A DNA stretch of 17,708 bases, from the NCBI GenBank assembly GCA_002887195.1, contig PJAB01001060.1, positions 1-17,708 on the forward strand, given 5' to 3'. The notes beneath the pieces are model-generated. The model was not told the origin of the DNA. It saw nothing but the letters and a program-made list of their open reading frames with translations, and did no database searches. The first letter of the stretch is position 1; each line of letters begins with the position of its first letter. The position numbers were made by a program, and so were the translations under genes. Below are positions 158-14,553 of this stretch, one piece after another. Source of the DNA: Chrysochromulina parva (taxonomy: Eukaryota; Haptophyta; Prymnesiales; Chrysochromulinaceae).

Positions 158-2536
158 ATGCCGGCCACCCCGGTCAGGGCGATCAAGATCACCCCGGGCA
201 AGCCGCAGCCCCCCGGCACGCGAATCGCCTTCCCAAGCAACCCGGCACCGACTCACTCTGATCCTGCGCCTCCGCCTACGCCGCCTCCCAAGCCTTCGCC
301 TGCCCCTTCGCCTGCACCTCCGCCGCCGCCTCCGAAGCCTCCGGCTGTCGAGGTCTCTCCGGCCGCTCACACGTACCCAGCACCCACAACTCCGCGCTCG
401 CAGCCGCTGGCTTCGCCGCGGCCGCACTCGGCGAAAGCCAGCCTCGAGGATACTCGCTCGCGCTGGGGAGCGGGCCCGTTCAAGCCGTCGCACTGCCATC
501 TGCGTGCGCTCTTCGGACTCCAACAAACCGAGGCCGATGTTACGAGTGTGCTGCGCAAGCTCGACCCTGAGTTTCCGGACGCCAACGCGCTTTCGGGCTC
601 GCAGGAACGTGCGATCCTCGCTGGCATAAAGGTGCTCATCGATGCGGCGGAAGCTGCGTACAACAACGCGCACAAGAATAAGCGGCAGCTCTACAGCACC
701 ACGTGGCGCTCGGTCGGTTCGGAGCGCCCGAAGCGCGGCAACGAGATCAACCAGAAGGAGTTTGCCGAGGCGCTCGCGAAACGCGCAACCGGCAACGGCC
801 GTGAGCTGCAGCCGCGCGAGACGGTAGAGCTTGGCCACGACAAGCTGACCGAGCTCGGCGTGAAGGAGGTCGACTTGCGGCCAGGTAACTTTGTGCACCT
901 CGCCGTCGGCAGCGGCGAGTACTACACCCTCTTAGAAGAAGTTGGAGCTCCCGAAAAGTATTCGGGTGCGACGATGCAGCATAACGACCCCAGGCTGTTG
1001 CTCGCCAATCAGCTTGAAGCGACCGCACAGGTGGCCAAGCAGTGCCTGGGCGGTCTGCGCATGCATGAGGGGATTCTTCTACGCCACGGAGACGAGCTCT
1101 ACGCCCGGCTGGCGGCTCTGCAGGCCATGCATTTAATCATCGAGAGCGCATCTGACCCAGGCAAGACGCTCACCAAGGGCGCGCCGCCGCCCGTGTACGG
1201 TTTGTCATGGATCGAGGTGCCCGCGCCGCCATCCGAGGGACGCGAAATCTTCTCATCGGTCCTCTCGGCTGCCCTGCAGCGTCAGACCACCTTCACGCCT
1301 GAGGAGCTTGCTGGCTTCAGGCTGCTGGAGGCACCATCCACGGACAGCTTCATAAAGGTGGCCGCAGCGGGCAATAACGGCCGCCCTCGGTACATGAAGA
1401 CGGTCGCTGTCGAAGCTCGTGCCGCCGGCGTCGCGCCAGGGACTCCGAGAGACCATGCCAACAAGCCTTGGCTTACGCCACGCGCCAAGTTCTCGGGCCC
1501 CGCCGTCAATCCTGACGCTGATGTGACGCCGGCTTCGACCCACTTGTCGTCGGCCGGGCTGAAGGGCACCGTGGCTGCAGTCAGCGCCGCTCAGCGCTGG
1601 GCAAATGTCCGCAACGTAGTGACTGCGGTCTCCGCGTTCTCGGGGCCCGCCTCGCCATCGAAGAGCTTCAAGCCGCAGTTTTCGGCCAAAATGGCGGTGG
1701 CAGCCTCTGCGCCGTCGCCATGGTCACCGCATGATGACGACGCGCTCCTTGAGCTGATACAAATGCACGGCCTGTATCGATGGGCGGTGGTGGCCGAGGC
1801 TCTCACGGCGCGGAACGGGCATTCGCACTCGATGCCTCGTACATCCCACACGTGCCAGCAACGCTGGGAGACCTTACTCAACGTCTGTCTCTCCGTTGGG
1901 GCGGCGCCAGCACTGCGCAAGACCTCGGATATACTCCTTTCCTGCCGCAAGGGCATGCGCAATGCCGAGCAGATCATGAACGAGGCGGCGGGCGTGCTCA
2001 TGCGTGCCCGATCGGAGCTGCAGCTCGCAAATGCACGCTCGATCCGTCTGAGAACAGAAGCCGCCGAGTTACGCGCAGAGGCGCAGGGACAAGCGGGGGA
2101 TCTCAATTCTCCGGCCTGGGCGATGGTCAGCGGTGCCGAGACGAAAGCGGCGGGGATTGCGGGGGAGCGGGCGAGGCTCGCGCTCATGCTCCAGACGGTC
2201 GGGCCTGGAATGGTGATGGAGAGGTTGGTGAACCAGGAAGATCGACTGCTGAAGCAGATCGACTTCCAGCCTCTCTCTGAGGAGCTGAGGCTCAACATAC
2301 TGAGCATCGAGACGGGGACGCTGTCTGGAAGCGAGGGCGGGAAGCCGCGGCACTTCCTGCGCGTGCGCGACTCGAGCACGGGCGAGATTGCGCTCGAGTG
2401 GAATGAGCCGAGCAACAGGCGCAATTGCGAATCGGGAGGCGACACGCGCATGGGAGGCGGACTCGATTCGTTCACAAAGAAGCTGCACGGGCCGCAGCGC
2501 GGTGCGCCACGCAGCGGAGCCAGCACGCCTCGCTGA
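158..2536 (+). CDS. Myb/SANT-domain protein of unknown family
   Basis: Intronless frame of 792 codons. I start it at the ATG at 158 (A at -3); the frame is open further upstream to 80 but only with a TTG. Residues about 28-95 are a proline/alanine-rich, probably disordered tract. A mixed alpha/beta region (about 100-350) that I do not recognise follows. Residues 520-575 look like one Myb/SANT repeat with tryptophans at 522, 542 and 570. The spacing between the first two is normal (19 residues), but 27 residues separate the second and third, so about 8 extra residues (GHSHSMP region) sit before the HTCQQRW recognition helix. A charged, coiled-coil-like helix (about 605-665) follows. A nuclear DNA- or chromatin-binding role is inferred from the Myb repeat alone. 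No close relative is recognised and no transposase motif is visible. Confidence 0.8.
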   Translation: MPATPVRAIKITPGKPQPPGTRIAFPSNPAPTHSDPAPPPTPPPKPSPAPSPAPPPPPPKPPAVEVSPAAHTYPAPTTPRSQPLASPRPHSAKASLEDTRSRWGAGPFKPSHCHLRALFGLQQTEADVTSVLRKLDPEFPDANALSGSQERAILAGIKVLIDAAEAAYNNAHKNKRQLYSTTWRSVGSERPKRGNEINQKEFAEALAKRATGNGRELQPRETVELGHDKLTELGVKEVDLRPGNFVHLAVGSGEYYTLLEEVGAPEKYSGATMQHNDPRLLLANQLEATAQVAKQCLGGLRMHEGILLRHGDELYARLAALQAMHLIIESASDPGKTLTKGAPPPVYGLSWIEVPAPPSEGREIFSSVLSAALQRQTTFTPEELAGFRLLEAPSTDSFIKVAAAGNNGRPRYMKTVAVEARAAGVAPGTPRDHANKPWLTPRAKFSGPAVNPDADVTPASTHLSSAGLKGTVAAVSAAQRWANVRNVVTAVSAFSGPASPSKSFKPQFSAKMAVAASAPSPWSPHDDDALLELIQMHGLYRWAVVAEALTARNGHSHSMPRTSHTCQQRWETLLNVCLSVGAAPALRKTSDILLSCRKGMRNAEQIMNEAAGVLMRARSELQLANARSIRLRTEAAELRAEAQGQAGDLNSPAWAMVSGAETKAAGIAGERARLALMLQTVGPGMVMERLVNQEDRLLKQIDFQPLSEELRLNILSIETGTLSGSEGGKPRHFLRVRDSSTGEIALEWNEPSNRRNCESGGDTRMGGGLDSFTKKLHGPQRGAPRSGASTPR

Positions 2537-2825: not shown

Positions 2826-5514
2826 TCACGAGGGCGAGCTCTCGAGCAGCGTGCCCAGCCCGAGAGCCCGGCCGTCGATGAGCGCCCATGCCTGCTTGGA
2901 TGGGCCTCCTTCTAGTTGTGGGAACGGCGCGGCAGTGCGCACCCACCCATCACGTACCGCATCCACCTCGATGATGGAGCCTGCCTGCACAACGTTGTGC
3001 ACAGCTGCGTCTGTCGCCGGTGCGGCGCGCAGGAAGACAAAAGGCTGGTGCACCACCTGATGAGGGAGGCAATCAGCGTGCAATCAGTGAAGCTGCGACT
3101 GGCGCCGTCATGGGCACCATGGAAGACGAAGGGCTTGTGCACCACCCTGTAGATTGCCCTGCTTGCGAGCACATGCATGGCGCCGTCATGGGCACCATCG
3201 TCGGCTGCGGGGTCGTGTCCGTGCGCCCGGCCGATAGCGCCGTGTTGGGCACCGCCGGCCGCCTCGTCGTCCGTTACGGTCAACTCGCCAGTGATCGCGC
3301 CCTTCGCATGCATCGGCTGCTGAATGTCTGCGAACCCAATCGATCGCACCCGAACGCCCCGCCGGGCCGCTTCCTCGGCCGCCGAGCACCAGCGCAGCGC
3401 TCCGTGGCCGTCGTCGTGGCCGTCGTCGTGGCAGTCGGAGGGTCGCGCCGGCATTGGCGGTCGCCTGCCCGCGACGGCGCTCAGCTCGCGCTCCAGCCCT
3501 CCCTCCCGCCCGCCCGCGAAGGCGAGGAAGGCGTCGCGGCTGGCGAGCGACTCCCGCCGTAAGGTCGCCTCGTCCTCGAGTAACGGTCGTAGCAACGCCT
3601 CAAAAGGAAGGACCTCCTCCACTGTCGCCTCTTCAAGGGTGGCGACGGCCACCGCCGCCGCGCGCTCCGCATTCGACGGGAGAGATGGGTGGGCGCCTAA
3701 ACGCTGCTCGAGCTGCGCGTTGCTCACGCCATGGTGCAGCGTGCCGCGCGCGTGGTCATAGGAGAGTGCCGCATGCGCGAGGAGGCGGGGGTTCGTGTTC
3801 GCCTCGGCGAGTCCGAAGACATCTGACGAAACACACGGGATGGCGCGACTGCATGCCTCCATCACGATCAGAGGGCAGCACTCCTGCCAGAGGGACGGCA
3901 CGAGACAGCGCCTGATGAGTGAGGCCATCAGTGGTGCCATCAGAGGCCATCAGAGGTCATCAGTGGTACTCACCTGCCAGAGGGACGGCGCGAGGAGCAC
4001 CCGGGTCTGCCGGAAGATGACGTCCACGTCGGGATGCGCCGGCAGGATGGTGATGTTGGGCAGTCGCTTGAGCTGTGCGAGGGTCTGGGCGCCCGTCCAT
4101 TGCGTCGTCACCGCCGCAAACGGCACGTGCGGCAGGCGCTGAGCGAGCGTCATCAAGACAGCGAGACCCTTTTCCGGCGCTGGGCTCACCAGCGTCACAT
4201 ACCGATGGGACGGCTCCCATGGCCTCATCGCAGGCGGGAGCGAGCGAGAGACGCCCGTCGCCGCGCCCGACACGGCGCTTGCAGGCGGGAGCGAGCGAGA
4301 GACGCCCGTCGCCGCGCCCGACACGGCGCCGGTGGTCTGCGAGCCCGCCGTCGTGGGCACATGGAAATAGCGGTAGTCCGCAGCGTATAAGGTGCGTACC
4401 TGGAACCCCGTTGTAGTGAGCACTTGCATGCAAGGCTTTCATCCACGGCAATCAACGGCAATCAACGTACCTGGAGCCCCGAGAGCGTTGTGGTGAGCGC
4501 ACTTGCATGCAAGGCAGGTCATCAACGGCAATCAACGTACCTGGAGCCCTGGCGGTCCCCAGCGCTGCAGGTACTCACAGTGATGCATGCACGGGCTGAG
4601 AAGCCCATCGAGGCGCTGCAGCAGGGCCACGTGGCCGTCGCGCACCTGCATGCAAGGCAACCAGTCGCAATCAATCGCAATCAATCGCAATCAGTCGCAA
4701 TCCGTCGCAATCCGTCGCAATCCGTCGCAATCCGTCCCAATCCGTCGCAATCCGTCGCAATCTGTCCCAATCCGTCGCAATCCGTCGCAATCCGTCCCAA
4801 TCCGGCGTGGCCACAGGGCCAGTGGCCGCTGCGCACCGGGAAGCGCCGAAAGGGCCCGAATGGTGGCAGGTAGTAGTTGTGCGGCGTGGCATAGTGCGCC
4901 GTTGCACGCAGCTCGAGCGCAAACGCCAGGATCGCTTGCTCAATGGAGAGCGCCATCACGACGTCGTAGTGCCGGTGCTTGAGCGCAGTGAGGAGAGCGG
5001 GTGCACGCCCAACGAGCACGCACTGATTGTGCTCCCAGGGCAGCTCACCGAGTTGCCCGTGCTCAAGCTTGTACACGAGAGCCTCGGGCACAGGCGTCTG
5101 CACGAGCGCGATCACGTCGAGGCCGCCGCCGCCGTCAGGCGTGCCGCAGATGCGCCCTGCCTCACGAAGCATGGCGAGGCTGGCCAGAGTGGCGCCGCCA
5201 AAGGACCCGCCCGTAAAGTAGCCTGTGTGGCACACAAATGCGCATCTAGGTGCGGAGCTGCGTGCTGGTGCGGTCGCGGGCGACCCAGAGCCAGATGACT
5301 CGCACTCTTCCGCCGCAGCCTTCTGCAGTGCATTAATCGCCTTCATGCGCTGGCCCAGCTTGCTGAAACCGAGATCGCGAAGCTTCGCGTCGAGCGCCGG
5401 CCGACCTTGCTCAGCCAGGATGCGGCAAAGCACGGCGCGTCGTGCCAGCAGATCAGCGTCTGATGGCGGAGGCGGAGGCGGCAGAGCAGCGTCCATCTGC
5501 TGCCGACTGTGCAT
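2826..5514 (-). CDS. GT-B (GT4-like) glycosyltransferase with C-terminal SH3b-like domain, five exons
   Basis: Exons in reading order: 5514-4837, 4645-4541, 4399-3974, 3883-3146 and 3056-2826, all junctions phase 0, giving about 725 aa. Introns 1 and 4 are not multiples of three and join exons lying in different frames; intron 3 contains an in-frame stop. Residues 20-66 end in a SAM-like motif (LGFSKLGQRMKAINAL). A Rossmann-type N-terminal half starts near 90 with a glycine-rich loop (GYFTGGSFGG). The C-terminal half has SPAPEKGL (333-340), typical of GT4 sugar-nucleotide enzymes, and an EX7E motif (E404, E412) that begins exactly at the exon 3/4 junction, followed by PCVSSDVFGLAEAN. Exon 5 encodes an SH3b-like domain starting YRVVHQPFVF and ending in GLGTLLE. 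It probably transfers a sugar from a nucleotide donor; the acceptor is unknown. No signal peptide is seen with this start. The first-exon frame is open upstream to 5910, but that part overlaps the neighbouring ATCase gene. Confidence 0.8.
3057..3145 (-). other. Intron 4 of the glycosyltransferase gene, introner-like
   Basis: 89 nt, donor GTGGTG at 3145, acceptor CATCAG at 3057, phase 0. The first 25 nt copy the first 25 nt of exon 5 with three mismatches, so the donor lies in duplicated exon sequence. Next comes a 21-bp exact copy (3100-3120) of an exon 4 segment at 3178-3198, then GATTGC-containing sequence ending CTCATCAG. The length is not a multiple of three; removal joins AIYR to VVHQPFVF and restores the SH3b-like domain. 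Confidence 0.85.
3884..3973 (-). other. Intron 3 of the glycosyltransferase gene, introner-like
   Basis: 90 nt, donor GTGAGT at 3973, acceptor TGGCAG at 3884, phase 0, with an in-frame stop. The last 19 nt (CGTGCCGTCCCTCTGGCAG) copy the last 19 nt of exon 3 with one mismatch, so the acceptor lies in duplicated exon sequence. The body has CTGATG-type repeats and the module CTGATGGCCTCACTCATCAG, which matches the tail of intron 4 (CTGATTGCCTCCCTCATCAG) at 18 of 20 positions. Confidence 0.87.
4230..4331 (-). repeat. 51-bp in-frame tandem duplication inside exon 3
   Basis: Two copies (4230-4280 and 4281-4331) differ only at the last bases. They duplicate 17 residues (AVSGAATGVSRSLPPA + S/M, about residues 286-302 and 303-319) in a linker just before the SPAPEKGL motif. 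Because the period is a multiple of three, the frame is kept. Confidence 0.93.
4400..4540 (-). other. Intron 2 of the glycosyltransferase gene, two tandem introner units
   Basis: 141 nt, donor GTACGT at 4540, acceptor TTCCAG at 4400, phase 0. It consists of two related units, 4540-4471 (70 nt) and 4470-4400 (71 nt). Each starts GTACGTTGATTGCCGTTGAT, contains the palindrome CTTGCATGCAAG followed by GCTCACYACAACG, and ends in GGGG(C/T)TCCAG, a copy of the end of exon 2 (GGGCTCCAG). The internal CTCCAG|GTACGT junction at 4471/4470 is itself a perfect AG|GT site. Removal joins WGPPGLQ to VRTLYAADYRYF. Confidence 0.82.
4646..4836 (-). other. Intron 1 of the glycosyltransferase gene, introner-like with 10-bp satellite
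   Basis: 191 nt, donor GTGCGC at 4836, acceptor GCATGCAG at 4646, phase 0. Its first ~25 nt (GTGCGCAGCGGCCAC...) are an imperfect copy of the first bases of exon 2 (GTGCGCGACGGCCAC...), so the donor lies in duplicated exon sequence. The middle (4661-4800) is 14 units of a 10-bp repeat, read on this strand as GATTGCGACG with variants. The 3' end is TTGCCTTGCATGCAG. Length not divisible by three; splicing joins FRRFP to VRDGHV. Confidence 0.82.
4661..4800 (-). repeat. 10-bp tandem repeat array, 14 units
   Basis: Read on the plus strand the unit is TCCGTCGCAA, with variants TCAATCGCAA and TCCGTCCCAA. Fourteen units lie in strict 10-bp register, inside intron 1 of the glycosyltransferase gene. 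A sister array of the same unit and number is at 12208-12347. Confidence 0.95.
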
Positions 5515-5737
5515 CGTCCGTATGTACGCCGGGCCGGTGTCTTGGGTGTCGAATTCTAAACAGTGGCTGTGAAGTCCAGATCGAGCGAAGGCGGCGCGGC
5601 GCCGCCCGCCGCCGCGCGCGATTTCACCAATTGAATACCTCCTCAAGAACGTGTTGTTGAGCACTGACCTTAGTGAGAATATACTGGTCCATTTTTGCGC
5701 TATGAACAGAGTGTGAACAGTGAACGACTTCGCGCCT
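5515..5737. promoter_or_regulatory. Shared upstream region of divergent glycosyltransferase and ATCase genes
   Basis: The 223 bp between the two chosen ATGs must hold both promoters. Visible candidates are a CCAAT motif at 5627-5631, about 107 bp before the ATCase ATG, an AT-richer stretch around 5670-5700 (GAATATACTGG), and a GC-only stretch near 5590-5620. No clear TATA box. A short upstream ATG at 5702 reads four codons to a stop before the ATCase start. Motif roles are inference. Confidence 0.4.
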
Positions 5738-6736
5738 ATGTCCAAGAAGCAAATGACGTCGCCGCTCTGGACGGGCAAGCACGTGCTCTCATGCGACCAG
5801 TTTGATGAGGCCATGCTGCACGTGCTCTTCGAGACGGCCTCCGCCATGAAGGCGATGGTCGCGACCAAGAGGAAGAGCGCCATCCTCACAGGCCGCGTGC
5901 TCGCCAACATCTTCTATGAGCCGTCGACGCGCACGATGTGCTCCTTCGACGCGGCGATGAAGCGGCTGGGAGGTGACGTGATCAGCGTGAGTGAGAGCTC
6001 ATCCTCCGCCAAGAAGGGCGAGACGATCGAAGACACGGTGCGATGCCTCGAGTGCTACTGCGACATCCTCGTCCTGCGTCACCCGGTCAAGGGCACTGCC
6101 GCGCAGGCGGCTTCCGCGATGAAGAAGCCTTTGATCAACGCCGGCGATGGCGTCGGCGAGCACCCGACGCAGGCGCTCCTCGACCTCTTCACGGTCGTCT
6201 CGGCGCACCCTCGCGCCAAATCAACCGCGGAAGGGCTACAGCTCGACTCCCTGACGCTGACGCTGCTCGGCGACCTGAAGCACGGTCGCACGGTGCACTC
6301 GATCGCGCGGCTGGTGACCAAGCTCTCGCGCCCGCCCACCCTCCACCTCGTCTCGCCCGCGCTCCTCTCGATGCCCGCCGAGATCTGCGACGAGCTGGCC
6401 AGGGCCAACGTGCCGATGCAGGCGAGCGACGACTTTGCCGCCGCACTGCCCGCGGCGGACGTGCTGTACGTGACGCGTGTCCAAAAGGAGCGCTTCGCCA
6501 CGGAGGCCGAGTACGCTGCCGTCGCGGGCAGCTACGTCGTCAACGCTGCCGCGCTCGCCGCCGGACCCGCCAAGCCGGATATGTTGATCATGCACCCGCT
6601 GCCCCGCGTGGACGAAATCTCCACTGACGTGGATGCGGACCCGCGCGCGACCTACTTTATTGAGATGGAGAATGGCATGTACGTCCGCATGGCGCTGCTC
6701 GCGCTCGTACTCGGAGCCGATCTCTCGGCGCTGTAG
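5738..6736 (+). CDS. pyrB: Aspartate carbamoyltransferase (ATCase catalytic chain)
   Basis: Transfers the carbamoyl group of carbamoyl phosphate to L-aspartate, the committed step of pyrimidine synthesis. I start it at the ATG at 5738, giving 332 aa, close to the usual catalytic chain length (about 310). Family motifs are intact: STRT carbamoyl-phosphate loop (63-66), active-site loop KKGET (lysines about 92-93), HPTQALLDL (142-150), GDLKHGRTVHS (178-188), TRVQKER (246-252) and HPLPRVDEI (286-294). Wording such as INAGDGVGEHPTQ and ENGMYVRMALLA is closer to the ATCase domain of animal/fungal CAD proteins than to plant plastid or typical bacterial PyrB (from memory of the families). No carbamoyl-phosphate synthetase or dihydroorotase is fused or adjacent, and no plastid-targeting leader is visible. 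The final codons and stop lie in the first unit of a downstream minisatellite. Confidence 0.97.
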   Translation: MSKKQMTSPLWTGKHVLSCDQFDEAMLHVLFETASAMKAMVATKRKSAILTGRVLANIFYEPSTRTMCSFDAAMKRLGGDVISVSESSSSAKKGETIEDTVRCLECYCDILVLRHPVKGTAAQAASAMKKPLINAGDGVGEHPTQALLDLFTVVSAHPRAKSTAEGLQLDSLTLTLLGDLKHGRTVHSIARLVTKLSRPPTLHLVSPALLSMPAEICDELARANVPMQASDDFAAALPAADVLYVTRVQKERFATEAEYAAVAGSYVVNAAALAAGPAKPDMLIMHPLPRVDEISTDVDADPRATYFIEMENGMYVRMALLALVLGADLSAL

Positions 6737-6879
6737 GCAGATGGCGCGCCGTAGCGAGCGCTGTAGGCAGGCGCCGCGCCGTAGCTAGCGCCGTCGGGAG
6801 GATGGCGCGCCGTAGCGAGCGCCGTCGGGAGGATGGCGCGCCGTAGCGAGCGCCGTCGGGAGGATGGCGCGCGCGTTGA
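6730..6879 (+). repeat. 30/31-bp minisatellite, five units, starting at the ATCase stop codon
   Basis: Units begin at 6730, 6760, 6790, 6821 and 6852, with the consensus core ATGGCGCGCCGTAGCGAGCG. The first two units are 30 bp and start GCTGTAGGCAG; the later ones are 31 bp and start GCCGTCGGGAG. The first unit contains the last codon (CTG) and the TAG stop of the ATCase gene, so the array appears to have grown from the gene's 3' end. Confidence 0.93.
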
Positions 6880-7405
6880 GCGCTGGCAAGGGGTACCCTG
6901 GTGTGGGAAAGAGCTGTGCGCTGGCAAGGGGTACCCTGGTGTGGGAAAGAGCTCTCGCCCCCTCCCCTGTCTGAGAGCGGACGAGCGGCTGCGCAGTGCG
7001 CTGGCAATGGGTAGCCTGTTGTTCCCGCAGGCGGGAAGTCTATTCCTCCACCTCCACCACCTCCCTCGTCCTGATTCTCGACTTTCAGACGAGGAGAGCG
7101 GAGCAGCTGCTGTGGTACATTGTATGGCCTGCATGGGCCTGTGCGCTGTGGTTGGCTGGTGCGCAATTGCTGGTGCGGCGGACCACGGGGCCGGGCTGAA
7201 CGCTCGTGAAGGGTGAAAAGGGGCCTGCATGTCGGTTGGGATGTTATAATTTGATAATTTGGCACCATGGTTGTGTATTGCGTCTGCTCCCTCATCGTAT
7301 AGGTATTCGCCCCTTGGACTTAATTCGCCCCGTCGAATTCGAAGTCTATTTCTGGGAGCTCGTGAGCTCATCTGATGCACGAAAGCGGTCACTTGCTACC
7401 GAACA
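6737..7405. other. Intergenic region between ATCase and the RING-CH/TPR gene
   Basis: 669 bp without a convincing gene. The first ~280 bp hold the two minisatellites. A short perfect inverted repeat, TTCCCGC-AG-GCGGGAA, lies at 7022-7037 and resembles paired E2F-type sites; its role is speculative. The last ~170 bp are AT-richer (for example TTATAATTTGATAATTTGG near 7244) and are the likely promoter of the gene at 7406. Confidence 0.5.
6880..7019 (+). repeat. 38-bp tandem repeat, two full units plus a degenerate third
   Basis: The unit starting GCGCTGGCAAGGGGTACCCT occurs at 6880 and 6918. A diverged partial copy (GCGCTGGCAATGGGTAGCCT) lies at 6998. It follows directly on the 31-bp minisatellite and lies between the ATCase and TPR genes. 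Confidence 0.9.
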
Positions 7406-10039
7406 ATGTCCATGCCCAATGCCAGGCAACTTAACGCCCTCGCCGCGGCTCTTTGTGCCATTCGGAATGGTGAGACCTCATCAGAAACTCTACGAGACCT
7501 CGCACAAGCCTTTGGTGCAACGCACCCGAAGGCGGGAACATTGCGTGCCATACAAGCAGTGCTGGATCAGATCGAACACCCTTCCGACTTCACCCGCGAC
7601 CAAGATGCATATGAGAAGCATGGCGCAACAAAAGCTACCTTCTGTCGCTGGAAGCAGAAGCTGACTCAACAATCACGCTCCATTGCAGTAGATGAGCTCG
7701 CGCAATCACTGGATGATGGTGATGAGGATGAGGATCATGATGAGCTTTCTGTCGCCTTACAGAGACGCGACGCTAGGCTTGAACGCCACGAGTGGCGCAG
7801 GGAAGCTGCCGAGCCAGACCTGGCCCAGGCTCCGCTAACATTCCTCGTCGGGGCGCCCCCTGATCTTGCCGGTCGAGCCCCGAGTACAGTGGTGGATGCA
7901 GCGGAGGCAGCCGGAATATCGGTTGCTGAGGCCTTCGAGAAGCTCATCATCTCTGCGGCCGACCGGCATGCAGCTGCCGTCTTAGAAGCGGATCTCGCTG
8001 ATTCTACGGTGGCCTTAAAAGAGAAAGAGGCGCGCGAGGCGGCTCTAGCGGCGGAGGCAGCCGAGGCTATTGCCATCCTTAGACGACATGACTCACGGAA
8101 GGCTGATGAGCTCTTGAACGAGGCGCGGGCGGCTGCAGTCTTGGCAACTGAGAAAGCAGAGGCGGCAGCGCGCGAGGCGGCGGCAGAGGCGGCAGAGGCG
8201 ACGGCCCGCCGCTCGGCGGGATCCTCGCGTGATGCGAGCCAATCCTCGAGTGATGCGAGCCTTCGTGCGCAAGAAGCCGCCTTGACCCCTATGTTGCCGT
8301 GTGCGGACGATGGATTTAAAGTCTGTCGAATCTGTCTCTCTGGTGATGAGGATGAGCCGCTCGTGCAGCCATGCGGCTGCCGAGGCACCGCGGCCTGGGT
8401 TCACGAAAGCTGCCTCAGCGAATGGCGGCGCACAAGCTCAAACGGCACAGCCGCCTACCGATGCGGTCAATGTCACGACGACTACCGTGATGCGCTGTCG
8501 ATTGAGCTGCTTGAGGAGAGGCTACTTCGGCAGCGCACGACGCTTGGCAATAGACATGCAGGCACGATTGACACCATCGTCGAGTTGGGGAACGTGTTGC
8601 ATGCCCAGGGCAAATTCCGCGCGGCCGAGCCCCTGCATCGCGAGGCGCTGTCGGCGAGTCGCGCGACGCTGGGGGATCGACACCCCGACACACTCCGCTC
8701 CATCAACAATCTCGCTTCGCTGCTTCAAGACCAGGGGAACCTGGCGGCGGCCGAGCCGCTGTATCGCGAGGCGCTGTCGGCGAGGCGCGCGACGCTGGGG
8801 GATCGACACCCCGACACACTCTGCTGCATCAACAATCTCGCCTCGCTGCTTCAAGACCAGGGGAACCTGGCGGCGGCCGAGCCGCTGTATCGCGAGGCGC
8901 TGTCGGCGAGGCGCGCGACGCTGGGGGATCGACACCCCACCACACTCAGCTCCATCAACAATCTCGCCTCGCTGCTTCAAGCACAGGGGAACCTGGCGGC
9001 GGCCGAGCCGCTGTATCGCGAGGCGCTGTCGGCGAGTCGCGCGACGCTGGGGGATCGACACCCCGACACACTAGGCTGCATCAACAATCTCGCCTCGCTG
9101 CTTCAAGACCAGGGGAACCTGGCGGCGGCCGAGCCGCTGTATCGCGAGGCGCTGTCGGCGAGTCGCGCGACGCTGGGGGATCGACACCCCACCACACTCA
9201 GCTCCATCAACAATCTCGCCTCGCTGCTTCAAGACCAGGGGAACGTGGCGGCGGCCGAGCCGCTGTATCGCGAGGCGCTGTCGGCGAGTCGCGCGACGCT
9301 GGGGGATCGACACCCCGACACACTCGGCTGCATCAACAATCTCGCTTCGCTGCTCAAAGACCAGGGGAACCTGGCGGCGGCCGAGGCGCTGTATCGCGAG
9401 GCGCTGTCGGCGAGTCGCGCGACGCTGGGGGATCGACACCCTCACACACTCTGCTGCATCAACAATCTCGCCACGCTGCTTCAAGACCAGGGGAACCTGG
9501 CGGCGGCCGAGCCGCTGTGTCGCGAGGCGCTGTCGGTGAGTCGCGCAATGCTGGGGGATCGACACCATAAAACACTCTGCTGCATCAACAATCTCGCTTC
9601 GCTGCTTCAAGCACAGGGTAACCTGGCGGCGGCCGAGCCGCTGTGTCGCGAGGCGCTGTCGGCGAGTCGCGCGACGCTGGGGGATCGACACCCCGACACA
9701 CTCGGCTGCATCAACAATCTCGCCACGCTGCTCAAAGACCAGGGCAAGCTCGACGACGCCGAGCCAATGTGTCGCGAGGCGCTTGAGGGGCTGCTTTCGA
9801 CGCTCGGCAATCGGAACCCGAACACACTCCATGCCATGAGCTCGCTTAAGGCGCTCGAGTTTCATCGCGCGCCGCTTGTTGGCAAGCAGGTGCTGCTGCA
9901 TGGGTTGGTGGCGAAGCCGGAGCTCAACGACATGACTGGGACTGCCACCGGCTGGAACAGCAAGAGTGGGCGGTACGCAGTGCGGCTGCAGGATGGGAGG
10001 GCCGTGGCCTTGAAGGCAGCCAACCTGGTCTTACTGTAA
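7406..10039 (+). CDS. RING-CH zinc finger / TPR-repeat protein, probable E3 ubiquitin ligase
   Basis: Intronless, 877 aa, ATG at 7406. The N-terminus has a helix-turn-helix-like stretch (residues 70-86, GATKATFCRW) followed by an acidic patch (103-113). Residues about 188-270 are an alanine/glutamate-rich coiled coil. A complete RING-CH (MARCH-type C4HC3) finger spans C307-C310-C323-C325-H333-C336-C353-C356 with textbook spacing and a tryptophan (W340) four residues after C336. From about 380 to 800 run ten 42-residue units of kinesin-light-chain-type TPR (LGDRHPDTL...INNLASLLQDQGNLAAAEPLYREAL). The tail 824-877 is a small SH3-like domain (GLVAKPELND...GRYAVRL). RING-CH fingers usually recruit E2 enzymes and TPRs bind partners, so substrate-selective ubiquitination is the likely role. 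No membrane segments, unlike many MARCH proteins. Partner and location are unknown. Confidence 0.93.
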   Translation: MSMPNARQLNALAAALCAIRNGETSSETLRDLAQAFGATHPKAGTLRAIQAVLDQIEHPSDFTRDQDAYEKHGATKATFCRWKQKLTQQSRSIAVDELAQSLDDGDEDEDHDELSVALQRRDARLERHEWRREAAEPDLAQAPLTFLVGAPPDLAGRAPSTVVDAAEAAGISVAEAFEKLIISAADRHAAAVLEADLADSTVALKEKEAREAALAAEAAEAIAILRRHDSRKADELLNEARAAAVLATEKAEAAAREAAAEAAEATARRSAGSSRDASQSSSDASLRAQEAALTPMLPCADDGFKVCRICLSGDEDEPLVQPCGCRGTAAWVHESCLSEWRRTSSNGTAAYRCGQCHDDYRDALSIELLEERLLRQRTTLGNRHAGTIDTIVELGNVLHAQGKFRAAEPLHREALSASRATLGDRHPDTLRSINNLASLLQDQGNLAAAEPLYREALSARRATLGDRHPDTLCCINNLASLLQDQGNLAAAEPLYREALSARRATLGDRHPTTLSSINNLASLLQAQGNLAAAEPLYREALSASRATLGDRHPDTLGCINNLASLLQDQGNLAAAEPLYREALSASRATLGDRHPTTLSSINNLASLLQDQGNVAAAEPLYREALSASRATLGDRHPDTLGCINNLASLLKDQGNLAAAEALYREALSASRATLGDRHPHTLCCINNLATLLQDQGNLAAAEPLCREALSVSRAMLGDRHHKTLCCINNLASLLQAQGNLAAAEPLCREALSASRATLGDRHPDTLGCINNLATLLKDQGKLDDAEPMCREALEGLLSTLGNRNPNTLHAMSSLKALEFHRAPLVGKQVLLHGLVAKPELNDMTGTATGWNSKSGRYAVRLQDGRAVALKAANLVLL
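8543..9802 (+). repeat. 126-bp tandem array encoding the TPR units
   Basis: Ten units of exactly 126 bp (42 codons). The phrase CTGGGGGATCGACACC recurs at 126-bp steps. The central units are almost identical at DNA level, including third codon positions, while the first and last are diverged. This pattern points to recent unit duplication or gene conversion within the array. Confidence 0.95.
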
Positions 10040-10679
10040 CAGCAAACATTGGCACGACATGGCACGGTACAATCCTGCTTTGCGACCGCGAGTGTGCTTG
10101 TCGCCTCGCTGTTTCAAGCTCAGGGCGACCTGTGTGTGGCCGAGCCGCTGTATCGCGAGGCAGTGCAGGCGAGTCGCGCGGCGCTGGGGGATCGACACAT
10201 CTCTCGCCTCGTTGCTTCAAGTACAGGGTGCCCCTCGCCATGATCTTCAAGCTCGCTACGATCCTGTCGCCCTTCTAAGCCGTCTCTGCGCAGCACACAC
10301 CGTAGAGAGGACGTTGGTGTGTGAATGTGAACGTGTGTCTTTTCGCCGGTCCCGGGTGGGCGGTGGGGGGTGGACGCGGACGGAGCGAGGCAGCCGAGCG
10401 CCGGCCGGGGCCGCGAAGAACGGAACAAGTCGAGTGTAAGTGAGCCGCGGAGGCAGGCCGCGCGTGCTGTGCGCGAGCGCCAGTCCGTCGTGAGGCTATT
10501 CGTCTGGCATGGCGGCTACCGTACCCTGAGCAAGAAATGACCATCGAAATGACAGACGAGAGACTACGGAAAGGCATATTAAATTATACTTAGACAGACT
10601 TCGCACCGTACACACGTCCTACATTCTTTAAACGAGAAACGTCGCTTATCGTACGTAACGCATGGTACTGCTGTGCATT
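10040..10679. other. Intergenic region between convergent TPR and PHD genes
   Basis: 640 bp between two convergent genes. Apart from the TPR relic I see no gene; open frames here lack recognisable domains and follow GC-rich sequence. AT content rises near 10560-10660, next to the 3' end of the PHD gene. Confidence 0.5.
10100..10229 (+). pseudogene. Decayed TPR repeat unit downstream of the TPR gene
   Basis: Sequence starting GTCGCCTCGCTGTTTCAAG matches about 1.2 units of the upstream 126-bp TPR array, including GCCGAGCCGCTGTATCGCG and GCGCTGGGGGATCGACAC. After GATCGACACAT about 25 bp of the unit are missing, which breaks the frame. It lies 60 bp after the stop of the intact gene, beyond the C-terminal SH3-like tail, so it is not part of that reading frame. 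It may be the remnant of a larger array or of a lost paralogue. Confidence 0.85.
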
Positions 10680-13600
10680 TTACTCGAGTGCGCGACTGAC
10701 CAGCCTCACGCGAGGATAGACCCACGAGTCGGGGTTGGTGTCGACGCCCGCCGCGGCCGCCGCCTCGAGCGCGCTCTGGCGCGTGCGGTGCTTGGTACCA
10801 TTCGGCTCGAGGTACGTCCAGTTCGCCACCGTGCGCGCGCCCTTGTACGCTTCGATCATGCGCCAGCCGGCGGCCGCGGCGCCGGGCCAAAGTTTGAAGT
10901 TGACCAGCGAAGGCGGCACCTCGTACCGGTAGGCGTTCTCATCGCGCGATCCGAAGTGCCGCGAGCCACCGCCCACGGCAGCGCCTACCGGTACGTGGTG
11001 GCGCGAGCTGCCGCCGTGACGGTCACGCGAGCCGCCGCCCTCGTCCGACTCGTCGCCGTCGTCGCCCAAGTCGGCGCTTCGGTCGGGCGGTCTGCCGCTG
11101 AGGCGCTCGGTACGGCGCTCGGTGCGGCCGGCGTGGGGGATAAAGGGCGGCGGCAGCTGCGGCAGCTGTGACGGGCGCAGCAGCGTACCATCGTCGGCGA
11201 GAGGCACCCAGCGAAGCCGCCTGTCCACCTGTGGCTGCGTGGGCGAGCGCATGACCTGTGGGGAAGAGAGAGGCGCCGTGGTGAGCGTATGCATGCAAGG
11301 GCTGCGTGGGCGAGCGCATTACCTTCCACTGGCGGCCGTCGCGGCCGTACGCCACCGTCCCCTTGGCACACCGCGTCGCGTCGGCCGGCGGAGGGATCAC
11401 GTCGGGGCGATAGACCCACCACCTGTGGGGAAGAGTGAGGCGCCGTGGTGAGCGTATGCATGCAAGGATCACGTCGGGACGATAGACCCACCAGCCATCG
11501 GCAAACTCGTCGGCGCCGTCTTGGTGGGCGCTGCCCCCTACCGTGTCGGGCCAGGGGCGCGCCGGCCGCGTGTTGAGCGCCTCGTGGTACGCGAGGGCCA
11601 TCTTGAGAAAGCGCGCGTGCTTCACTTCACGGGTCTCGCGGGCAGGCGCCGAGACGGGCGCCGAGGCGGGCGCCGAGGTGGGCGCATCGGCGCCACGTCG
11701 CTTATGGCGCGTCTCCATGGGCGCGATCGTCGCCGCGCTCGCCACAACACGCGTCTTGCAGGCCGCCTCGGCCGCCGCCGCCTCGGCCGCCGCCGCCTCG
11801 GCCGCCGGCTCGACGGGCGCCGTTGCGGGCGCCACCGCCTCCGCCCCCGCCGCCTCGACAGGCGCCGTGTTGAGCGGTACCTCCGCTCGCGGCTTGACGG
11901 GCGGCGGCGGCGGCGGCCCTTCCTTTACCGGTACGAGCAGCTTCGTGTTCTGGTGGAGTTTCGGGCGCGTTGTAGTGAGCACTTGCATGCAAGGCAGGTC
12001 ATCAGTGGCAATCAACGGCAATCAACGTACCTGGTGGAGCTTCGAGCTCGGCCGCAGGTCATCAACGGCAATCAACGGCAATCAACGTACCTGGTGGAGC
12101 TTCGAGCTCGGCCGCAGGTCAGGAAACTGAGCCGCGTTGAGGTCGACCAGCACCATGGCGTCGACGCCACACGCCGTCGCAATCTGGCGCACCTGCACGC
12201 AAGGCAATCAGTCGCAATCAGTCGCAATCCGTCGCAATCCGTCGCAATCCGTCGCAATCCGTCGCAATCCGTCGCAATCCGTCGCAATCCGTCGCAATCC
12301 GTCGCAATCCGTCGCAATCTGGCGCAATCTGGCGCAATCTGGCGCAATCTGGCGCACCGTCTCATCTTCGCTGGCCACGTACTCTCGCAACTGCTGCGGC
12401 GCGCGCGGCGCCGCCATCGCCTCCATCGCCTCCATCGCCTCCGACGCCTCCGTCGCCGCCTCCAGCCCGACCTTCAGCTCCGCTGCTGCCCTCGCCGCCT
12501 CTTGCACCTTCATGGCCTCTCTCCCGATCAGCGCAAGCGCCGCCGCGGGCAGAGGCGCCGCAAACACCGCCGCTTGCGCCGTGTTGAGCGCCGCCTCTGC
12601 TGCCGCTTCCGCCGCCGCCATCGCACGCCCCCGCCTCCTCTCCTCCTTCTCTACCCGATGCTGCTCGTTGGCAGCCTCGTCCTCCATCGCCTCCACCTGC
12701 GCCGCCGCGGGCGCGGGCGTGGCGCCCGTCACGGCGCCACCCGAGCCTGCCACCGCCCCCTGCCCCTCACCGTCCGCCCCTCTCCCTTTTTTGGAATGTC
12801 TCCTCGCCGCCCTCTCCCACTCCTCCATCGCTCGCACCTTGACCCTCTCGGCCTTCCTTGCCGCCCTCTCCGCCCTCTGCGCCGCCTCCGCCGCCTCAGC
12901 TGCTCCTCCCTCCACACCAGCCAACCTCGAGGCCTTCTCAGCCAGCGTAGCCGCCCGTTTGGCCGCCGCCTTGGCCGCCCTCTGAGCGTCCTTGACCGCC
13001 TCCCTCTGCGCCTCCCGCTGCGCGTCGGCGCGCTCGCGCCCTGGGTGGCGCGGCGCCCGCGGCCCATACCGGTCGCGCGCGTCCTTGGCCTTGCAGTGCG
13101 ACGGGCACAAGATCCAAAAGTACTCGGCGCCAAAGTGCGCGCAGCTCCCGAGCTTGAGATTGCTCTCGAGCCCGCAGCTCGGATGGACGAAGAGCGGACA
13201 GGAGGGCACATTGCCGCACGTGGCGCCGCATCGGACCAGCCCACGCACGCCGCCGCAGACGGCGCACTTTGGCGGGCCCGTCGCCGTCGCGAACGGGATG
13301 AGCGGGGGCGGGGCGGCGTCGATGACCGACACGGCGCCAGCTCCGGACGGCAACAGGGCACTGGCGGAGGTGGAGCCGCGAGTGCCCAGGACGACGCGAG
13401 AGGACGACGCGGCGGCGGCGGCGGCGGCGGCATCGTCCACATCATCCGCTCCTAATTGGGTAACGTTGCCTAATTTGGCATCATCCACCATAGCCTCAGC
13501 CGCAGCGACAGCCTCGACCTCGACCTCGACCTCCTCGTGGGTCTCGGCCTCGACCTCGACCTCGACCTCCGATTGGATCTCGATCTCGACCTCGACCTCG

Positions 13601-14553
13601 ACCTCCGAGTCCTCCGCCTCCTCCTCCGCTCGATGCAGCGGGGGCGCAACCACCGATGGCGCGCCTGCTTGCATCGTCGTAAGCTCGAGCTCGCTAGCCG
13701 CTCGTGCGCCGTCGAAGAGCGCTGACGGGCCGCCCTCGACTAGCCGGCAGATGCCGCGGTGGCGCGCGGGGCGCACGCAGCGCGCGTCTTTGGGGCATGG
13801 CTGGTGCCCTTCCGCTAAGACGAGCGCCGCGTCGCCACCAGGTCGAGCGTTCACATTCACACCAGGTCGAGCGCGGGCGGGCGACCGAGCGACGCGGGCG
13901 GCGGGCGGCCGTGCGGCGGCGGCACGGGCGGCTGGCGCGGCGTCGGGCGGAGCGCGAGGGCTGCTGGACTTGGCGGCTGCACCGTCGAGCATTCTCGGCG
14001 CTGTCTGCGTCGCAAGCGTACACGAGCGCCTGCCGGCCGCGCCACCGAGCACACTGGGCGTCCTCTGCACCGTCATTGCGTAAACGAGCGCCGCGCGCAC
14101 GCCCGACGCGACGAAGCAGCCCTTTGCTGGCACGAGCGACACGCCGGGCATAAAATGGGCGCACACTCCGTGAACCCACTCGCCGCCCGCGGTGCGAATC
14201 AGCGCGCCGCCGCTGCGGTCACACAGCGCGCACCGCTCTGCGCTCGTCTGGATCCCCGCGATGCAGGCGTGGCACGAGAAAGTGCTGGCTCCTTGCTGCG
14301 ACAGGGCGACGGCGCAATCGGCCGGCAGGAAGCATTCGGGGTGCACGGTCACGCCGCAGCTCGCGCACAAGAGCAGCCGCTCGGGCTTGGCCCACTCGCC
14401 GCACACATGGCAGCGCGGCCAGCCACGGCGCGACAAGGATTTCGAGGAGCTGGCGGCGGCCTTGGAAGAACGCGGCTTCAGCAGGCACGACTCCTCGTCC
14501 ACGTTGGCCACGTTTCGAACGTGCGGCTCCGAGCCAGCACTAGGATCCTCCAT
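10680..14553 (-). CDS. PHD / extended-PHD / LysM-like / MBD-like chromatin protein, five exons
   Basis: Exons in reading order: 14553-12358, 12192-12091, 11949-11492, 11422-11323 and 11255-10680, about 1143 aa. The ATG at 14553 (ATGG context) is preferred to a GTG 15 bp upstream. A canonical C4HC3 PHD finger is formed by C48, C51, C63, C66, H71, C74, C94 and C97. A zinc knuckle as in extended PHD modules follows (C108, C111, WVHGVC 126-131). Residues 316-350 are Glu-Val repeats. A second Cys/His cluster at 430-487 (C430, C433, C442, H457, C460, CPSH) resembles an extended PHD. Residues 505-700 are an Ala/Arg/Glu-rich helix or coiled coil. Residues 730-775 match a LysM-like motif (ETVRQIATACGVD...VDLNA...KLLVPV), rebuilt only when introns 1 and 2 are removed. 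The C-terminus (about 1075-1122, WRMIEAY...WTYLEPNGTKHRTRQSALEAA) resembles a methyl-CpG-binding domain. A nuclear reader of histone or DNA marks is inferred. Confidence 0.85.
10922..10995. repeat. 14-bp perfect inverted repeat inside the last PHD-gene exon
   Basis: CGTACCGGTAGGCG at 10922-10935 and its exact reverse complement at 10982-10995, with a 46-bp loop. It lies in coding sequence just before the MBD-like domain. It could form a hairpin in the mRNA; no role is known. Confidence 0.8.
11256..11322 (-). other. Intron 4 of the PHD gene, introner-like
   Basis: 67 nt, donor GTAATG at 11322, acceptor CCCCACAG at 11256, phase 0. The first 23 nt copy the first 23 nt of exon 5 (GTCATGCGCTCGCCCACGCA...) with one mismatch, and that mismatch (C to A) makes a better donor. 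The remaining ~44 nt are the same insert as in intron 3, with one base different. The length is not a multiple of three; removal joins RQWK to VMRSPTQP. Confidence 0.9.
11423..11491 (-). other. Intron 3 of the PHD gene, introner-like
   Basis: 69 nt, donor GTGGGT at 11491, acceptor CCCCACAG at 11423, phase 2. The first 26 nt (GTGGGTCTATCG...) copy exon 4 with one mismatch, followed by an insert starting CTTGCATGCATACGCTCACC and ending CTCTTCCCCACAG. The length is a multiple of three and there is no stop, so retention would add 23 residues in frame. Splicing as drawn leaves three tryptophans in a row (DGWWWVYR). Confidence 0.82.
11950..12090 (-). other. Intron 2 of the PHD gene, two introner units with an exon fragment
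   Basis: 141 nt, donor GTACGT at 12090, acceptor CACCAG at 11950, phase 0. It starts GTACGTTGATTGCCGTTGAT like intron 2 of the glycosyltransferase gene and has the same total length. A 60-bp tandem duplication (12001-12060 and 12061-12120, two mismatches) places a copy of the last 27 nt of exon 2 plus its donor inside the intron. The rest has CTTGCATGCAAG (11982-11993) and GCTCACTACAACG, and it ends with CTCCACCAG as exon 2 does. Removal joins SSKLHQ to NTKLLVPV. Confidence 0.85.
12001..12120 (-). repeat. 60-bp tandem duplication spanning an exon/intron border
   Basis: The copies 12001-12060 and 12061-12120 differ only at two adjacent bases. The right-hand copy contains the end of exon 2 and the true donor; the left-hand copy lies wholly in the intron and offers a second, identical donor at 12030. 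Confidence 0.97.
12193..12357 (-). other. Intron 1 of the PHD gene, introner-like with 10-bp satellite
   Basis: 165 nt, donor GTGCGC at 12357, acceptor GCGTGCAG at 12193, phase 0. The first bases (GTGCGCCAGATTGCG) copy the start of exon 2 exactly, so the donor is in duplicated exon sequence. The body is 14 units of the GATTGCGACG-type 10-mer, and the 3' end is GATTGCCTTGCGTGCAG. An in-frame TGA near the 3' end of the intron shows that it must be removed. Removal joins SEDET to VRQIATACGVD inside the LysM-like motif. Confidence 0.87.
12208..12347 (-). repeat. 10-bp tandem repeat array, 14 units
   Basis: Strict 10-bp register; plus-strand unit GTCGCAATCC, with the units nearest exon 1 reading GGCGCAATCT. 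It has the same unit, length and left boundary (AAGGCAA then YCAGTCGCAA) as the array at 4661-4800. The exon 2 text CAGATTGCGACGG itself contains one unit. Confidence 0.95.

Follow-up and report, generated by a model that had tools for sequence, protein, structure and literature searches.

Introner-like elements with long, variable target duplications in two unrelated genes of a haptophyte contig

Two unrelated genes on a single haptophyte contig carry eight introns built from shared modules. We interpret them as products of mobile introners of two classes that leave long and variable duplications, are filtered by size and were probably copied from introns; we give this explanation as a whole a probability of roughly 0.82. 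The origin of spliceosomal introns is a long-standing question, and genomes with active introners allow that origin to be watched. Here, within one genome, a common core is found in two opposite modes of splice-site recruitment.

Eight introns in two host genes

The window, i.e., the whole stretch of 17,708 nt that was analyzed, is an entire contig of the haptophyte genome. Its minus strand carries eight GT-AG introns, four in a glycosyltransferase (GT) gene and four in a PHD gene (Table 1). Excision of the eight introns, each with one copy of its duplication, leaves reading frames that are open over 719 and 1143 codons, confirming the first-pass annotation, which had proposed eight introns with shared modules in two unrelated genes; without splicing, the GT frame meets a stop within intron 1. 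The GT protein matched PF13692 with 33.2 bits (cut-off 27), while the PHD match of the other protein, at 22.9 bits, lay slightly under the Pfam cut-off of 24. The end of the GT gene at 2826 was calculated from 719 codons, the stop and the introns. In GT intron 3 the order is donor GTGAGT, TGATGGC-type 10-bp units, CTCATCAG and a copy of the upstream exon, which is the source of the acceptor. PHD introns 3 and 4 are neighbours and nearly identical. An Rfam scan of the window gave no match at the gathering threshold, and hence none to self-splicing group I or II introns.

Table 1. Positions of the two genes, their introns and intron modules in the window
Feature	Position	Strand	Description
Glycosyltransferase group 1 gene	2826..5496	-	719 aa once four introns are removed
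GT intron 1	4646..4836	-	class B, includes a 10-bp array; acceptor CTTGCATGCAG supplied by the element, donor by the duplication
GATTGCGACG-type 10-bp array in GT intron 1	4664..4804	-	period 10, 14.1 copies
GT intron 2	4400..4540	-	tandem pair of class A copies; element brings donor GTACGTTGATTGCC, duplicated exon end brings acceptor
GT intron 2 core CTTGCATGCAAGTGCTCACTAC, one of two	4413..4434	-	pattern match
GT intron 2 second core	4490..4513	-	spacer longer by 2 bases; read directly
GT intron 3	3884..3973	-	class A-like; lacks CATGCA core
GT intron 3 inner duplicated exon segment	3884..3904	-	partner copy 3974-3994
GT intron 4	3057..3145	-	class B, without CATGCA core; tail GATTGCCTCCCTCATCAG, duplication-derived donor
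GT intron 4 duplicated exon segment, 5' end	3121..3145	-	exon copy 3032-3056; 22/25 identical
PHD-finger gene	10680..14553	-	1143 aa once four introns are removed; end calculated
PHD intron 1	12193..12357	-	class B; acceptor CTTGCGTGCAG; contains 10-bp array
GATTGC 10-bp array in PHD intron 1	12204..12349	-	14.6 copies
PHD intron 2	11950..12090	-	double class A insertion; CTCCACCAG exon end three times
PHD intron 2 core	11972..11993	-	pattern match
PHD intron 3	11423..11491	-	class B; tail CTCTTCCCCACAG
PHD intron 3 core	11445..11466	-	3 mismatches to pattern
PHD intron 4	11256..11322	-	class B; tail CTCTTCCCCACAG; 23-bp duplication, 22 identical
PHD intron 4 core	11278..11299	-	3 mismatches to pattern

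The GT protein (32 homologue matches) was gapless at all four junctions in 11/11 aligned homologues. Similarly, spliced pieces of ClpB, MSH6, DDX21, HECT and ABCF were gapless at the junction when compared with solved-structure sequences. The best frame was fully open at 24 of 32 sites after splicing vs. 10 of 32 unspliced; this test covered 32 of 47 sites, those in loci shorter than 1 kb (15) being set aside along with the 3 of 36 class B copies lacking a duplication that scored at least 10. On the basis of protein homology, the segments are best read as spliced introns, the predicted GT-AG removal restoring the coding sequence. The PHD segments are likewise predicted to be introns from restoration of the open reading frame and family resemblance.

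Concerning the age of the introns, the GT introns are absent from all 11 aligned GT homologues, and two ClpB proteins of 98% identity, P0161 and P0164, continue through the predicted junction without the class B introner; comparison with relatives, as the first-pass annotation had suggested, thus did not uphold the possibility of old introns. The ClpB protein P0161 ends in DGH, which is the unspliced reading of the class A introner of this genome, and the ClpB proteins could be of metatranscriptomic origin, from transcripts that had lost the B intron by splicing but kept the A intron. With this transcript caveat for ClpB, the insertions appear recent and lineage-specific, and the ClpB case suggests that nearly identical strains may still differ in them.

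Two element classes and the length of their duplications

The shared core spans about 24 nt (GCATGCA-NNN-GCTCACYAC-RGCGC). The branch-point consensus is yTnAy, and CTCAC in the core, which fits it, is a candidate branch point. Four occurrences of CTTGCATGCAAGTGCTCACYAC (up to 3 mismatches) were found in the window, a number reached in 0/200 shuffles, whose maximum was 0. The GCATGCA-type core or a short form of it is present in six of the eight introns, while the GT introns at 3884-3973 and 3057-3145 share only TGATTGC/TGATGGC units and the CTCATCAG tail and lack the CATGCA core. The earlier view that one family seeded all eight introns is therefore too simple, given the two with 10-bp units and the CTCATCAG tail only. 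The elements are better described as a putative core family in two reciprocal forms, together with an overlapping group defined by the 10-bp array or CTCATCAG tail.

The anticipated further copies were abundant in the assembly. Exact-pattern searches of the genome returned 238 cores, 481 core-plus-acceptor (class B) ends followed by GT and 35 strict class A matches; the array pattern matched 1685 times and the CTCCCTCATCAG-GT tail 788 times. Patterns written backwards, as controls, gave 0 matches genome-wide. Gene contexts are known for the retrieved loci, and highly similar introns occur in many unrelated genes of this one genome, as is characteristic of introners. Viral carriage was considered and rejected, as neither the core nor the class A donor arm had an exact match in viral contigs; the nine matches there of the CTCCCTCATCAG-GT 16-mer are, by our own estimate, what chance would give for so short a word.

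Class A copies bring their own donor arm (GTACGTTGATTGCCACTGATGACCTGCCTT) and the core, and take the acceptor from the duplication. Class B copies bring the core and an acceptor tail (..CTTCCCCACAG), and the donor is taken from the duplication. Splice sites are GT-AG with a few GC donors. Recruitment of one splice site from the duplicated target, which had been expected of introners, was thus seen in both classes. A copy of the adjacent exon at one end of every intron, also proposed earlier, was found in 8/8 cases, at the 5' end (downstream-exon copy) in five and at the 3' end (upstream-exon copy) in three. Gapped duplications (aligned/identical) were 40/32, 9/8, 28/25 and 40/35 for GT introns 1 to 4, and 36/29, 20/17, 40/34 and 23/22 for PHD introns 1 to 4. 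Ungapped, they reached 22 nt at 95% identity in GT3, 26 nt at 88% in GT4, 28 and 23 nt, each with one mismatch, in PHD3 and PHD4, and 15 nt in PHD1 (direct reading). The length of mostly about 19-28 nt given by the first-pass annotation is valid for five of the eight and fails for the remaining three.

Across the genome, recognized duplications measured 9-50 bp (class A 9-28, class B 13-50), with a recognition floor of about 9 bp for A and 13 bp for B. The duplication exceeded the 99% null in 33/36 single class B and 7/14 single class A copies, and did not in 3/36 and 7/14, respectively. Among the above-null duplications, 29/33 of class B and 7/7 of class A had offset 0, an exact terminus that is partly built in, since copies were selected with class patterns that demand a donor or CAG end. 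Length statistics were based on 104 unique copies minus 54 tandem or unclassified ones. The class A copy L006+ was left out of the range, length, terminus and strand analyses, and one 148-nt class B double out of the length-relation, filler and terminus analyses. Tandem element-duplication units within single introns occur at loci L006, L052 and L055.

Core sites were mostly in sense orientation, in 56 of 59 strongly scored cases and 60 of 69 by sign. The coding-strand scorer was right for 37/37 held-out pieces, window loci L001 and L005 being withheld from training. An earlier run of the same scorer, with 59/59 controls right but overlapping the training set, had given 57/60; the counts were nearly equal on the held-out repeat. 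Results of two preceding scorers (33/46 controls right) were not used. When 79.8 kb of arbitrarily chosen regions were scanned blindly, 33 duplications turned up, with 6 on the coding strand and 5 on the antisense strand able to restore splicing, vs. 31 duplications in reversed sequence; given these similar antisense and reversed-sequence counts, the scan cannot separate signal from noise.

Longer duplications were found with shorter elements. In 32 class B copies, duplication length correlated with filler length at r = -0.84, and in 13 class A copies with tail length at r = -0.63. Class A duplications were shorter than those of class B (P = 0.0008; P = 0.029 with one score threshold for both classes). 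Of the 46 introns measured, 45 fell between 64 and 93 nt. This inverse relation and the narrow intron range indicate that a filter for minimum intron size could explain much of the duplication length. It had been argued earlier that long duplications point to a different mechanism; they are indeed longer and more variable than a transposase making short staggered cuts of fixed length would leave, but the step from long duplication to different enzyme is weaker than it appears, because the size filter could account for much of the length. A simulation of the filter fitted roughly, with a spread of 6.7 vs. 6.5, a mean length of 75 vs. 78 and r of about -0.6 to -0.7 vs. -0.84. The average similarity of the filler to the continuing exon slightly exceeded the permuted value (P about 0.02; 20 of 32 class B copies, filler of at least 8 nt). 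Decayed duplication was rejected as a general explanation of the filler, as only 2/20 stood out singly at 0.05.

Possible origins of the copies

It appears that each copy would enter an exon in the sense direction and leave a variable target duplication, one copy of which would provide the missing acceptor (class A) or donor (class B). Splicing would then take out the element and one copy, so that the protein stays the same or nearly so. As the element is below the smallest intron here (64 nt), mainly insertions with long duplications would survive, a filter suggested by the inverse length relation. The relation thereby points to minimum intron size as a sieve that makes introns from insertions. 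The copies themselves were most likely intron-derived and inserted at staggered breaks, plausibly as reverse-transcribed excised introns; this route is favoured because in each class one intron terminus is in exact register while the other end is variable. A more specific version, which we advance tentatively, takes the excised intron as the mobile unit, a "portable branch point." Class A, with an exact 5' end and a common 3' end about 9 nt beyond the presumed branch A, would stem from RNA whose tail was trimmed just beyond the branch point. Class B, with an exact 3' end but a truncated 5' end, would stem from untrimmed RNA copied part-way, and both forms would be reverse-transcribed into staggered breaks. 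If so, the minimum intron length of the spliceosome would set the duplication length needed for survival. The variable duplication with one fixed and one variable end is also a trait of LINE/SINE-type (TPRT) insertion, although the fixed end can be mimicked by selection and by the class patterns; class B copies do end at CAG, an end demanded by the class pattern. The five reverse-transcriptase (PF00078) matches in the genome are weak (E 3.8e-7 to 8.8e-6), and so few weak matches do not favour retrotransposition.

Several other origins were weighed against intron-derived mobile copies. In one model (AG|GT), the exon sequence is duplicated locally in tandem, or through template switching during replication, and the filler comes from a nearby intron without any mobile element. 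Such a model would agree with the varying duplication lengths, the tandem units in single introns and the near-identity of the neighbouring PHD introns 3 and 4. We nevertheless consider it doubtful, as the common core on many contigs implies inserts from one source family, the duplication begins exactly at the acceptor end in 29/33 class B copies, and the introns are not purely duplicated local sequence but contain a foreign core (present by construction of the search). MITE-like introners, i.e., non-autonomous DNA transposons mobilized by a transposase, have been proposed for Micromonas, Aureococcus and dinoflagellates. Such an origin would account for the family structure, for the duplicated targets and for the way splice sites are recruited, all of which resemble known introners. 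However, no terminal inverted repeat (TIR) rose above shuffles in the two consensus strings (A 7/15, P = 0.22; B 6/15, P = 0.35), one end is variable in each class, and duplications of a variable 9-50 bp are neither short nor fixed, compared with the 3-9 bp reported for introners (PMC9860276). It should be mentioned that TIRs are also absent in many published families, being present in 72/177 (PMC9860276), and that MITEs often have direct repeats of 10-15 bp (PMC7789003), a length described there that overlaps the shorter class A duplications. Overall, we regard a DNA transposon as unlikely.

For fungal introner-like elements, it has been proposed that an excised intron is reverse-spliced into a different mRNA, with reverse transcription and recombination to follow. 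The mostly sense copies beside coding sequence and the one terminus in exact register per class are in line with it, but it predicts whole introns, whereas here one end is missing, and no target duplication, whereas one was recognized in 33/36 single class B copies; this route thus seems very improbable. Finally, the segments might be in-frame coding repeats or assembly artefacts. PHD intron 3, at 69 nt, is open in frame (with the GT-AG pair chosen, one Trp codon is added), as is the best unspliced frame at 10/32 sites. Against this, intron lengths modulo 3 are distributed 9/14/9, the unspliced GT frame hits a stop, and homologues without exactly these segments contradict it for the GT gene and ClpB, leaving it hardly credible.

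Comparison with known introners

Introners are already known, including in the haptophyte genus Chrysochromulina, and the present elements are a variant of them. Family 5 of Chrysochromulina sp. TARA_PON_109_MAG_00232, with a 70-nt example lacking TIRs, brings its own 5' splice site and recruits the 3' site, which is the logic of class A here (Gozashti et al., 2022, PMC9860276); judging from this description, the two may be related. Its duplication is given as 4 bp, compared with 9-28 (A) and 13-50 bp (B) where recognized here, and the account of that family describes no acceptor-carrying form with a common core, which is present here (PMC9860276).

The introners described for Micromonas, Aureococcus and Symbiodinium are similar as repeated introns in unrelated genes that draw splice sites from a duplication, but some have TIRs and their duplications are 3-9 bp, e.g., 4 bp in the Symbiodinium and 8 bp in the Aureococcus sp. 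examples (PMC9860276). The introner elements reported from Amoebophrya also show direct repeats over the exon/intron boundaries of repeated introns; these measure 3-5 nt vs. 9-50 bp here, and are accompanied by inverted repeats of 8-20 nt and largely non-canonical splice sites, whereas here no inverted repeats were found and sites are GT-AG with a few GC donors (PMC7789003). For newly gained Daphnia introns, 33 repeats of 4-12 bp are cited, in contrast to 9-50 bp flanking one recurrent family here (PMC4202315). The present duplications are longer than these sources state, be it for introners (3-9 bp in one, 3-5 nt in another) or for recently gained Daphnia introns (4-12 bp) (PMC9860276, PMC7789003, PMC4202315), and the size-sieve idea predicts that in every other introner family, too, shorter elements would be accompanied by longer duplications.

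Copies across the genome and two reciprocal forms

The genome searched comprises 45.07 Mb in 2199 contigs, of which the window is C1060 (17,708 bases). The aspartate carbamoyltransferase encoded in the window assigns the contig to the haptophytes: among named organisms it is closest to the proteins of Haptolina brevifila (76%) and of Prymnesium parvum (69%), while one environmental protein reaches 98% identity. The introners of the window are located in two minus-strand genes, encoding a group 1 glycosyltransferase and a PHD-finger protein. Counting only exact matches to chosen patterns, the core CTTGCATGCANNNGCTCACYAC was found 238 times in the whole genome, the core end with acceptor and then GT 481 times, the strict donor arm 35 times, the CTCCCTCATCAG tail followed by GT 788 times and three GATTGC words at 10-bp spacing 1685 times, these last matches overlapping one another. 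Backwards-read controls of all five patterns gave 0 matches each. The abundance of cores, acceptors and tails agrees with the introner origin proposed in the first-pass annotation.

In the loci fetched from the same genome, the core occurs in 104 unique copies: 14 single class A, 36 single class B and 54 tandem or unclassified. In class A the element brings donor arm and core and the acceptor is taken from a duplication of adjacent exon, the consensus running from GTACGYTGATTGCCACTGATGACCTGCCTT through GCATGCAAGTGCTCACCACAGCGC and a variable tail to the copy of the exon end, ..AG. In class B the element brings core and acceptor and the donor is taken from the duplication, the consensus running from the copy of the exon start, GT.., through variable filler to GCATGCANNNGCTCACCACGGCGC..CTTCCCCACAG. 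This is an introner family in two reciprocal recruitment modes within one genome. The modules that the first-pass annotation had seen in all eight introns correspond to parts of these consensus sequences and do link the eight; however, two glycosyltransferase introns have no core, and attributing all eight to a single family was an overstatement.

The array unit, in the window and genome-wide, consists of 10 bp, a constant GATTGC and a 4-nt spacer. Among the matches listed, spacers appear alike inside one array and different from array to array. At one intron of the PHD gene, the target exon has CCAGATTGCGACG right where the insertion took place, and the array units to either side carry those same spacers, GCCA then GACG; judging from the sequence, this array looks as if seeded by microhomology with the target.

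Positions of features in the window and, where named, in other loci (L) or contigs (C) of the same genome
Location	Strand	Feature
2826-5496	-	glycosyltransferase gene, four introns
3057-3145		intron without core, grouped with the 10-bp-unit / CTCATCAG set
3884-3973		intron without core, grouped with the 10-bp-unit / CTCATCAG set
4230-4329		glycosyltransferase exon: exact 51-bp tandem duplication, which repeats 17 residues of the spliced protein
4664-4804		10-bp array
6740-6872		tandem repeat with a 31-bp unit, downstream of and close to the aspartate carbamoyltransferase gene
7376-10039	+	RING-variant plus TPR gene: 126-bp repeat, 9.2 copies, 92% matches
about 10100-10230		apparent decayed piece of the 126-bp repeat, as read from the sequence
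10680-14553	-	PHD gene, four introns
12193-12357		intron whose array units carry the same spacers as the target exon
12204-12349		10-bp array
L046, about 1458	+	GC donor GCAAGC in an otherwise normal class B intron
L038, about 1473	+	GC donor GCACGT in an otherwise normal class A intron
L006, about 222-366	+	element + duplication, three times head to tail
L052, about 1851-1945	counted on reverse strand	element + duplication, three times head to tail
L055, about 595-705	counted on reverse strand	element + duplication, three times head to tail
C42, C43		CTCCCTCATCAG-GT tail repeats in regular 65-80 bp steps, by match positions

Splicing, homologues and gene context

The eight window segments were spliced out on the assumption that the boundaries of each intron fall such that a single copy of the exon duplication leaves with it. 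The resulting frames have 719 codons (glycosyltransferase) and 1143 codons (PHD gene), while the unspliced glycosyltransferase frame meets a stop within intron 1. A search with the spliced glycosyltransferase protein returned 32 matches, 30 with E < 1e-58. None of the 11 that were aligned has a gap or insert at any of the four junctions themselves (for example APSLWQ/ECCPLIVMEA, the slash marking the junction); near junction 2, there are small differences of one or two residues in two rows, a few columns upstream, and a downstream insert in one row, and at junction 4 several aligned rows have gaps upstream. The homologue P0121 (668 aa) is encoded on a 2139-nt contig, too short to contain four such introns, and thus represents a relative without them. 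Elsewhere in the genome, spliced pieces of ClpB, MSH6, ABCF1, nucleolar RNA helicase 2 (DDX21) and the HECT ligase HACE1 match sequences of solved structures with gap-free junctions, the HACE1 match being weak (3e-7). We consider the introns real, judged by homology for the glycosyltransferase gene and the pieces of other genes, and by the restored frame and family resemblance for the PHD gene. A result that counts against it is that best frames are fully open in no more than 24/32 tested sites when spliced, compared with 10/32 unspliced. The earlier reading of eight introns in two unrelated genes is borne out by both frames and by the glycosyltransferase junctions, and the introns are absent from the aligned glycosyltransferase relatives.

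A coding-strand scorer, correct on 37/37 held-out 300-nt pieces, placed core sites in sense orientation in 60/69 cases by sign and in 56/59 strong calls, and the 10-bp arrays of the fetched loci in 13/15 and 11/12, respectively. Earlier scoring, with controls overlapping the training, had given 57/60 for core sites and 11/12 for arrays. At least one coding flank was present at 62/68 core sites vs 364/480 random points. Selection acting on exon insertions would be expected to spare the sense copies in genes; antisense copies are notably scarce, and a few intergenic copies may exist.

The ClpB gene carries two introners, a class B and a double class A one. With spliced ClpB as the query, two environmental proteins matched at 98% identity, P0161 (3 member sequences) over 479 residues and P0164 (2) over 439; both continue uninterrupted across the class B junction, which lies at residue 180 of the query. 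The C-terminal end of P0161, ..GAPPGYVDGH, is exactly the unspliced reading of the genome's class A introner to its stop; P0164 stops short of that point. If these proteins are genomic, they would represent a near-identical strain without the class B insertion and with the class A one; if they derive from transcripts, class B would have been spliced exactly at the predicted site.

Target duplications, intron length and mobility

Scored against the 99% level of mismatched pairs (null median 5), the duplication exceeds that level in 33/36 single class B and 7/14 single class A copies, all 14 of the latter scoring at least 8. Its register is exact in 29/33 and 7/7 of these, respectively, and therefore splicing gives back the original sequence. 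Where recognised, duplications measure 13-50 bp in class B (n = 33) and 9-28 bp in class A (n = 13), shorter ones escaping recognition. The class B donor copy begins with GT in 26/33 and GC in 2, and the exon copy with GT in 30/33, the GT share being biased among the 20 loci that came from a pattern already requiring acceptor then GT. Donor and exon copies mismatch at 20/198 positions within the first six and 27/631 further in. Several donor-copy changes resemble donor improvements (GTC to GTA, GTGCTC to GTGCGC), as would fit selection acting on the donor afterwards, a few rows being probably misregistered. A blind scan of 79.8 kb found 33 duplications, of which 6 restore splicing on the coding strand and 5 on the antisense strand, and so gave no coding-strand excess.

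In class B (n = 32), the duplication shortens as the filler lengthens (r = -0.84), and total length is 77.6 with an s.d. of 6.5, vs 14.1 with permuted fillers, 0/20,000 permutations being as narrow. In class A (n = 13), the correlation with tail length is r = -0.63 (permutation P = 0.012). The class A fixed part is longer and its duplications shorter, with a median of 14 vs 24 in class B (P = 0.0008, class A being admitted at a lower score); with one score threshold for both (9 A, 33 B), class A has a median of 17 and class B one of 24 (P = 0.029). Introns of 64-93 nt account for 45 of the 46 measured, the sole outlier (148 nt) being a double. It appears that a minimum intron size may select for long duplications. 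A model of steeply declining duplication lengths with such a minimum yields a similar spread and a smaller mean; its r of about -0.6 to -0.7 falls short of the observed value and leaves some of the coupling unaccounted for. Most class B fillers bear no resemblance to continuing exon sequence.

Regarding mobility, a transposase is disfavoured because the class A and class B consensus sequences gave no TIR signal and the duplications are variable, and a LINE-like route is not favoured because reverse transcriptase domain matches are few (5) and weak. Copies may move as intron-derived molecules, perhaps reverse-transcribed, into staggered breaks, and GCTCAC, assigned by the branch-point consensus, would act as branch point. 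Each class has one intron terminus in exact register, at opposite ends in A and B, as would be expected of trimmed or partly copied excised introns; selection for splicing, or the patterns by which copies were picked, could yield the same appearance.

Comparison with published introners

A survey of 175 genomes described 548 introner families (Gozashti et al., 2022; PMC9860276). According to the parts of that paper considered here, both recruitment directions occur among introner families, previously characterised families have duplications of 3-9 bp, and a family in a Chrysochromulina MAG brings its own 5' splice site, recruits the 3' site from the target and has a 4-bp duplication and no TIR, whereas the class A duplications recognised here measure 9-28 bp. 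Likewise, the excerpts compared give 3-5 nt for Amoebophrya direct repeats (PMC7789003) and 4-12 bp for repeats of comparable kind at new Daphnia introns (PMC4202315), in contrast to the 9-50 bp recognised here; those of PMC12768974 and PMC11782384 added nothing on duplication length. Literature listings, subscription papers (the primary ones on Micromonas/Aureococcus and dinoflagellates included) aside, yielded no paper recognised as describing introners whose duplications run to tens of bp. Introners are thus already known, Chrysochromulina included, and by the published descriptions compared it is the variant with duplications of tens of bp that is new.
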